This document shows, in pieces, positions 55,777 through 57,926 of a stretch of DNA of 64,000 nucleotides (position 1 is its first letter; each line of letters begins with the position of its first letter). The notes under the pieces were generated by a model. That model was given only the letters and a program-made list of their open reading frames with translations, had not been told where the DNA came from and made no database searches. This stretch comes from Stachybotrys elegans (taxonomy: Eukaryota; Ascomycota; Sordariomycetes; Hypocreales; Stachybotryaceae), in NCBI GenBank assembly GCA_020746835.1, contig JAGPNK010000015.1:620001-684000 (forward strand), read 5' to 3'. A program made the position numbers and the translations under genes.

Positions 55777-56294
55777 TTATTCCAGATCATCGATGGCAGC
55801 ATCCAAGGCAGCTTCTAAGATGGGGTACTTGTTCCTGATCGTATCCATGACCAGCGTCTAATCAATTTCAGGGCTGGTACCGTGCCCGTAGGTGTGCGAC
55901 AAAATGTTGCGCTGCCCTCGAAGATACTCAGCATCCTTGAAGACGTCCGGATACTGCTGCCGGACCTTTGGGTCTTTGACTGCTCCAATGTTCTCCGAGA
56001 CCACCTCCATCTGCTTGATAAGCCCGGCGCGCACAATCATGGATGTCGAGTCATTTTCTGATATATTTGCAAGTTGCTGCAGAGATGGGGGAGGCATCAG
56101 TAAACTCCTCGTTCCGAGAGTCGTGTGTCAACCGGCTTGTCTCGGTAGATGGAATCTGGCACTATGCCTCTCCCAATTCCTCCCCTAATCACTCAACTTA
56201 CCTCGGCGTTGAAACTATGCTTTTTGACAGTGTCTGAGATAATCCTCAACGAAGTCCTGCAAGCGGCGAAACTAGCATGAATCCTGTTGGCCAT
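55777..56294 (-). pseudogene. HEPN/HepT-like (DUF86) protein gene with premature stop
   Basis: Exon 1 (56294-56202), intron 56201-56077 (125 bp, GTAAGT donor, TACTGATG branch, CTCTGCAG acceptor, phase 0), then exon 2 from 56076. The spliced frame gives 103 residues to a TAG at 55860-55858 and stays open for 26 further codons to a TAA at 55779-55777, about the normal HepT length. Residues 87-94 read RNILSHTY, an exact RX4HXY motif: in bacterial HepT, Arg and His form the HEPN RNase site and the Tyr is AMPylated by MntA. The preceding helix (LIKQMEVVSENIG) matches the family's second helix. The stop falls just after the motif, where bacterial members have a Trp; TGG to TAG is a G-to-A change. 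The missing tail is the last helix. It is head-to-head with an MntA-like gene. It may be a pseudogene, a read-through gene or a truncated but active form. Confidence 0.65.
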
Positions 56295-56988
56295 TCTTTG
56301 GGTTGGAAAGTGTACTGGAAATATGGTGCAGTGCCACACAAACAAGGCGCAAAAGATGAAGGATCATATAAGGAGGATAGAATACATGTTGGACCCCTCG
56401 TCCTTTTCTTGGTTCGCATTTATTCAGTGCCCTCCATTGGGCATTAAGGCGACTGCATAGTCTTACGATGTAACCCAACCTCCAGACATGTACATCTTGT
56501 TCTCCGGCATTATATAACATGTACGTTAGCGAGCGCAGTGGAGAGGCTTCAATTACGTACATTCGTAGTACCTAAAAGGTCACTTACAGTCTACTTCCTC
56601 GGAATGACTAGATCACGCAACAAGTGAATATGTGGTGGTTTTAATGGCTTGACAAATGCGGCAGCTGGTCTCAGAATACCTAAGCGCTCGTCCCGCACCA
56701 AGTAGTCATGAGTACAGCGCTCATCAGCCACCCTAAACCGACCCACATCCTCCGTACACTAGCCGCTTGTTCTACCTGGAGAGCTTTGGAGAACTTGCGA
56801 CGGCAATTCCATGGCGCTTAGGTCTTCAGATGCATCGTCGACGGCGGAAAGTGTTACCCGACGCTGCTCGGATACTGGTGGCTTGCAGTTCACCGTCACC
56901 ATTTTTAGCACGCTCATTTTGCCGCGCTCCACCGACGCAGGGCTCGCTGCCTATTTCTTCACCTCGTACTTTCAAGCCATCGAGCACC
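56295..56988. promoter_or_regulatory. Divergent intergenic region between the HepT-like and MntA-like genes
   Basis: About 690 bp separate the two start codons. No other gene is recognised. It must hold both promoters, and the head-to-head layout would allow joint control. No clear TATA box or palindromic operator is seen. Confidence 0.45.
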
Positions 56989-57926
56989 ATGCGTCCTCAT
57001 AATCTAGAGGCCCTCAAAACCGCCGCCGCAAGTGACCTTGCCCATCCCGACTTTCGGAACATCCGCTGGGCAGGCATCTTTGGATCCTTTTCTCGAGGCA
57101 CTGCGACTGAGTCGAGCGACGTTGACGTGGTCGTCATCGAGGCTCCCTATGACTGGTCTGTGACGAAGCAGTTGCTAGAAGACGTCCTACCCGTGGCGTG
57201 GTCACGATCGGTGGACGTCATTCATATCTCGGAGGGCCAGACTGACTTCCGCGGCTACATCCAATTGGAGTCCTTGCTTGCCAGCCGAACCATCTTCCTC
57301 CGCGACCATGCTGCGCGCGATGAAGTCTCCCGTCTGAGGACACTCGCTAAGCAAACTGTCGACAAAGGCCAAGCTCTATACTCTGGTGTAGCGTCTCGCA
57401 TAGACGCGGTGAGGCGCCTTGTCGACCAAGTTTCCTTGCAGGTATGCCGATTTTCATTTTCCTCTTCCACGCGCCTAATTTTGCACGGAGCCCTCTCTAC
57501 CCTCGCATGCGTGGCAGTTTGTTTCTCTCGTCGCACCATGGCTCACTGAAGCAGGACTTTGTCGGCTGGCCGAAGGAACAGCACGTCGATATTCTCTCAC
57601 AAGTGTCTTTGATACTCGGTGATCTAGACATACAGCCCAAGCACCACGCAATGCGCGAGGCCTTCTGGTACGCTGCCATAAAGGACGCGGAGACTTTGAG
57701 CACGAGACTGAAAGATGCAAGAAGAAAGGACGCCGAGGCTGCAGACCAAGACAAGGGGCCTGGAGCTACCACGCTCCGCACAGTCTGGGAAATGTTGACA
57801 ACTACCGAGCGTCATCAAGGCCTTGAATTTATAGCCCGGATGACGAGGAAACACGTTCTACTCCAGCTGGTTGAGACACGCATTTTAGGAGAAGAAGCAG
57901 AAGATATATACAAGGTTGAGCTGTAA
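56989..57926 (+). CDS. MntA-like minimal nucleotidyltransferase with C-terminal helical extension
   Basis: Exons 56989-57441 and 57555-57926 give 274 aa; the 113-bp intron (GTATGC donor, CTCACTGAAGCAG acceptor) is phase 0. I chose the ATG in CACCATGCG because it puts the domain at the N-terminus; the frame is open upstream without protein character. Residues 29-49 read GIFGSFSRGTATESSDVDVVV, which fits GSX10DXD exactly (Gly32-Ser33, Asp44, Asp46), the motif of the antitoxin nucleotidyltransferase MntA. After about residue 115 comes a long helical part (LVDQVSLQDFVGWPKEQ; MREAFWYAAIKDAETLS) absent from bacterial MntA, which is about half this size. By homology it could AMPylate the neighbouring HepT-like protein. 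Its own frame is intact. Confidence 0.8.

Follow-up and report, generated by a model that had tools for sequence, protein, structure and literature searches.

Does a fungus carry a functional toxin-antitoxin pair of the bacterial HepT-MntA type? The question is raised by two divergent genes within a 64-kb stretch (the window) of Stachybotrys elegans, a hypocrealean ascomycete, which a preliminary description of this DNA had presented as an intron-containing HepT-MntA-like pair in head-to-head arrangement. In the available parts of the cited sources, HEPN/MNT is predicted to be the most abundant toxin-antitoxin system of prokaryotes (PMC7641770), while the 2013 survey of HEPN domains places the HepT-type family (HEPN-M, PF08780/PF01934) under bacteria and archaea and the MNT gene in the 5' position of the bacterial pair (PMC3710099). 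Our analysis supports the homology to both partners and the head-to-head order, but the frame of the HepT-like gene is cut by an in-frame TAG, and therefore a working two-gene module is not present as sequenced. We consider the locus to be probably the fungal remnant of a HepT-MntA (HEPN/MNT) module from bacteria, composed of an intact nucleotidyltransferase (NTase) apparently fused to a HEPN domain and of a stopped free HepT. Rather than a functioning pair, it resembles a module in the course of being tamed or lost.

The two genes start at 56294 on the minus strand and 56989 on the plus strand, which reproduces the spacing of 695 reported earlier, and each is interrupted by one spliceosomal GT-AG intron (125 and 113 nt, respectively). 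On the minus strand, exon 1 (56202-56294, 31 codons) takes the position of the first helix; it is followed by the 125-nt intron (56077-56201, donor GTAAGT, acceptor CTGCAG) and by exon 2 up to the stop (55861-56076, 72 codons), which contains RNILSHTY at 55888-55911, the exact RX4HXY motif already noted. On the plus strand, exon 1 (56989-57441) is spliced across the 113-nt intron (57442-57554) to exon 2 (57555-57926, ending at the stop codon), giving a protein of 274 aa in a stop-free frame.

The plus-strand protein is readily classified. It matches PF18765 (Polbeta; 35.6 bits, E 1e-8, cut-off 26.9) and PF01909 (NTP_transf_2; 28 bits, cut-off 21), the Pfam NTase match spanning residues 23-93, and the GSX10DXD motif of the preliminary description is found at residues 32-46 of the spliced protein as GSFSRGTATESSDVD. 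The NCBIfam model MntA_antitoxin matches at E 1.7e-8 and 34.3 bits, below its 60-bit cut-off, and seven scanned relatives reach 24.6 to 44.3 bits with the same model. Candidate-defence models of PADLOC match as well (best PDC-S09, E 1.1e-7). By sequence, the closest solved relative is the Shewanella MntA, with an E of 0.023 that is non-significant alone. Compared with the kanamycin nucleotidyltransferase and ANT(4') MNT-HEPN fusions (PDB 1kny, 6un8), the window protein is nearer the MntA model by sequence, and the ANT(4')-I model scores 18.8 bits on the relative P0014, against a cut-off of 350; a drug-modifying role is not suggested. The gene corresponds to the deposited S. elegans protein B0I35DRAFT_515719 (P0001). 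We observed that the deposited model begins 53 codons upstream, at 56830, leaving an intergenic stretch of 56295-56829 between the divergent genes, and that it ends short of the model that full-length relatives support.

Out of 5.77 billion proteins, a profile search scored the best 7,997 candidates and listed 52 sequences at E <= 1e-6, of which the first 27 were examined. Five of these carry an organism name, all fungal (S. elegans twice, Stachybotrys chartarum, Ophidiomyces ophidiicola and Clonostachys rosea), and the remaining 22 are labelled fungal-like by grouping only; the only name shown among the 25 later, weak matches is that of a bacterium (P0034). GSX10DXD is kept in 25 of the 27 relatives, the exceptions being P0021, a fragment, and P0003. 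The altered motif of P0003, a close relative of the window NTase, hints at decay among family members. In tblastn searches against plasmids the NTase gave 12 non-significant matches (best E 0.6), several of them to annotated nucleotidyltransferases, and the viral contigs yielded no confirmed relative of the NTase or of HepT.

The preliminary description had also mentioned a helical extension of about 150 residues in the NTase. This extension is real: P0012, P0013, P0014 and P0016 align with the window protein almost to its end, and it is therefore a family trait. The reading that we prefer, supported although not proved, is that of a HEPN domain fused to the NTase and lacking the RNase (ribonuclease) motif. 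Most of the putative domain lies in exon 2, an assignment that draws in part on a structural model of P0013; in that model, MntA is the top structural match of the NTase part. RX4HXY is absent from the window NTase protein, whose C-terminal part has a single RX4H, at residue 246, near the end, which is absent from P0013.

At the opposite end of the protein, the 53 codons preceding the core in the deposited model (56830-56988) encode a basic, acid-poor, presequence-like leader. Such leaders precede a late-starting core in 11 of the 28 sequences scored. In their first 25 positions, acidic residues account for 4 of 275 and Arg or Lys for 57 of 275, whereas the bodies of the same 11 sequences are 14.5% acidic; against the random-codon rate of 4 in 61, the acid deficit has a p of 5.6e-5. 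The starts of these leaders come from four deposited models, five database entries for unnamed proteins and two in-frame upstream positions that we chose ourselves, one in a gene that looks broken (L008) and one in a gene whose deposited model (P0005) begins below the leader. In the window, the codon use of this leader is not coding-like (-0.262 bits per codon). Import of the NTase into mitochondria is therefore a lead, not a result.

Whether the minus-strand gene encodes a HepT at all required more work. The Pfam searches, in which the NTase passed both of its cut-offs, left this protein below those of the HepT families: PF08780 gave 16.5 bits (E 0.0085) for the spliced protein and 19.8 bits (E 0.00082) for the exon-2 open reading frame (ORF), against a cut-off of 31.8, and PF01934 gave 12.3 bits (E 0.14) and 12.0 bits, against 23.5. 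There was no HepT match in NCBIfam or PADLOC, and nothing relevant in the PDB by sequence. Because the library matches were weak, we built a separate HepT profile. For this purpose, we fetched 38 loci from bacteria or archaea that contain an MntA-like NTase, considered the neighbouring ORFs with R-x4-6-H and picked 20 HepTs by eye, including two pairs of near-copies. With this profile the spliced fungal protein ranks first among 1,311 sequences (the 1,309 ORFs of the window plus the two pieces), with 24.3 bits and E 1.5e-6, the next score besides its own exon-2 ORF being 5.4 bits. The best of 20,000 shuffles reached 12.5 bits; when the motif was kept, none of 20,000 shuffles attained the real score (best 22.2). 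Since the rows of the profile had been picked by motif, we repeated the test with the motif end removed: the protein then scored 12.4 bits, a value reached by 3 of 20,000 shuffles (19,494 scored). Furthermore, hhalign paired it with HepT at 92.5% and E 4.8e-7 over 49 columns. The Glu, Arg, His and Tyr that are invariant in 19 prokaryotic HepT rows are retained, while their Trp is lost. Folding the exon-2 ORF on its own gave no useful information.

One could argue that the minus-strand gene is not a HepT, and that RNILSHTY arose by chance, whether in a short fungal gene or in a frame that is not coding. The Pfam scores under cut-off would agree with this, as would the fact that no such protein was seen in a collection of 5.8 billion proteins and that the back-translated motif pattern occurs at nine places in the genome, fewer than the 26 of its reversed control, so that the bare motif is not rare. 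Against it stand the dedicated profile, hhalign and the motif-masked and shuffle controls, all of which oppose chance. Among the nine genomic places, only that of the window scores well with the HepT profile (22.9 bits, the next being 8.4). We regard a chance motif as very improbable and, at the level of sequence, the minus-strand gene as a HepT homologue. We also compared the free HepT with the fused HEPN domain as its possible source; the comparison gave no support to such a copy.

The state of this gene is the point on which the answer turns. A TAG at 55858-55860 falls between residue 103 and 26 further in-frame codons, which reach a TAA at 55777-55779; the gene as first stated, extending to 55777, is therefore not an open frame. 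The TAG cuts away the segment corresponding to the last helix of HepTs, and HepT-like codons continue in frame beyond it (55777-55857), although this remnant alone has a weak HepT profile score (4.9 bits, E 1.6). Codon use is coding-like both in the exons (0.117 bits per codon, a value reached by 3.65% of 4,000 stretches drawn at random from the window, including coding ones) and in the piece after the stop (0.253 bits per codon), which points to a gene that lost its function in the fungus only recently. We conclude that the minus-strand HepT is probably a young pseudogene.

Alternatively, the truncated product of 103 residues might be the functional form, which the NTase would modify or be regulated by, and would not act as an RNase. 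The good intron, the coding-like codon use and the retained Glu, Arg, His and Tyr would allow it. However, coding-like codon use and a weak resemblance to HepT persist beyond the stop, as expected if it is recent, and in a by-eye reading of the alignment 18 of 19 prokaryotic rows (the exception being L034) extend more than 20 residues past the motif, compared with 9 in the fungal protein. We hold this explanation to be unlikely.

In a working eukaryotic toxin-antitoxin pair, the Tyr of the free HepT would be adenylylated by the NTase, which would restrain the RNase; HepT would be intact in other isolates, and the module would have a role in conflict or defence. In its favour, both catalytic motifs are kept in adjacent genes, the NTase matches the PADLOC models, and the HepT/MntA mechanism, in the portion of its published account available (PMC7641770), relies on the same motifs. 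Nevertheless, the TAG lies ahead of the last helix, the genes diverge instead of following the bacterial order, no HepT was detected in the sequence retrieved for the two further NTase loci of this genome, and close searches found no HepT relative, in collections poor in fungal DNA. A working pair thus appears quite unlikely, and the conflict, incompatibility or selfish function suggested earlier for the two genes is unsupported.

The searches for HepT relatives can be specified as follows. Plasmids, prokaryotic genomes and viral contigs, which are poor in fungal DNA, contained no close relative (two non-significant matches in tblastn against plasmids), and a six-frame protein search of the S. 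elegans genome detected none elsewhere. Whole-genome searches with PF01934 and PF08780 returned nothing; since they missed the window's own HepT as well, they are uninformative on further copies. A HepT consensus query also missed the window HepT and gave two matches (E 0.7 and 1.6), of which the first scored 7.0 bits with the HepT profile and the second was unlisted. Polbeta matches in the genome number three, namely that of the window and two on C3, and the HepT profile found nothing beside the two C3 genes in the fetched stretch (C3:1134500-1159400).

We observed that a second NTase-HEPN paralogue (L008:4485-5204; about 1138984-1139703 on C3) looks broken: compared by eye with P0014, it has a frame jump after the third catalytic aspartate and lacks the middle of the protein. 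Near it, at L008:478-4307, there are large minus-strand ORFs that by eye contain ankyrin-type repeats and an NLR-like N-terminal part.

How such a module came to be in a fungus was addressed with a quick tree of 57 rows, namely 24 fungal-like sequences including that of the window (five of named fungal source) and 33 of the 38 prokaryotic loci; P0006, P0017, P0021, L028, L037, L040, L044 and L057 were omitted, and the window row stands for P0001. The fungal-like NTases form one side of a branch (Shimodaira-Hasegawa-like approximate likelihood ratio test, SH-aLRT, 98), apart from the 33 bacterial or archaeal rows. They fall into three sub-clades, and the window NTase clusters with P0002 and P0003. 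The proteins of S. chartarum (S40293_05710, P0014), O. ophidiicola (LOZ61_001497, P0012) and C. rosea (P0016) have the same two-part build and basic leader as the window NTase, although they belong to another sub-clade. Entry into fungi by transfer, as suggested earlier, fits as an ancestral event with the homology to MntA and HepT; transfer from bacteria is likely, and so is the fusion of the NTase to a HEPN domain. The donor cannot be named from this tree, because patterns taken from the fungal alignment were used to collect the prokaryotic sequences. The simplest reading is a single ancient acquisition, after which fusion and duplication took place, and the free HepT may have arrived either together with the NTase or later.

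The surroundings had been described as a defence-type island. Six of nine neighbouring ORFs scanned have Pfam matches at E 0.001: HET (43087-45462), PNP-UDP phosphorylase (58552-60009, minus strand) and DUF7580 (61916-63433) are indeed present, but the surroundings are mixed, with a 2-oxoglutarate (2OG)-Fe(II) oxygenase (38017-39285), an amine oxidase and a major facilitator superfamily (MFS) transporter. A clear sign of a dedicated defence island was not seen among the nine ORFs. Both HET and PNP genes occur widely among fungi. The ORFs scanned did not show the C2H2 and subtilase parts attributed to the neighbours, further exons lying outside the scan. Within 58552-60707 on the minus strand, the next ORF upstream of the PNP-UDP phosphorylase, which shares its orientation, gave no Pfam match at E 0.001. 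The tRNA and Rfam scans of the window gave no matches.

Returning to the remnant that we favour, the plus-strand gene would belong, intact, to a fungal family that joins an MntA-type adenylyltransferase to a HEPN domain lacking the RNase motif. Judging from MNT-HEPN fusions, its product most likely moves AMP from ATP to a substrate held by the fused HEPN, perhaps in mitochondria. The minus-strand gene would once have been a functional free HepT-type RNase, which retains the Arg and His of the active site as well as the modifiable Tyr; it would have acquired its intron in the fungus, and then the premature stop that removed the last helix. The transfer from bacteria, the AMP transfer, its compartment and the loss of HepT function are what we infer. 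A bolder version, to which we attach a very low probability, is that filamentous fungi took up the HEPN/MNT module once, fused the antitoxin to a dead HEPN and sent it to mitochondria, at least one lineage keeping a second, catalytically competent free HepT beside it, so that a eukaryotic, perhaps mitochondrial, toxin-antitoxin system with two HEPNs would be intact in some isolates and broken here.

The closest counterpart is the type VII HepT-MntA system of Shewanella oneidensis (SO_3166/SO_3165; PDB 5yep, 7bxo), which, in the available part of its account (PMC7641770), likewise joins a GSX10DXD NTase to an adjacent RX4HXY protein. In contrast to it, the fungal genes diverge and carry introns, the NTase has a C-terminal HEPN-like domain, and HepT is stopped early. 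We found nothing about such a fungal NTase-HEPN family in titles or abstract beginnings (most subscription papers being outside the search), and those on S. elegans contain nothing on a HepT/NTase locus. What we describe is a probable family of fungal MNT-HEPN fusions, one member of which has a decaying free HepT at its side. The locus in the window is a divergent one of the HEPN/MNT kind, and its toxin is truncated. The presequence-like leaders open a possible mitochondrial role to direct testing. If true, the NTase-HEPN family and its stopped, intron-bearing HepT would show the taming of such a module in a eukaryote, with the enzyme kept and the toxin lost.
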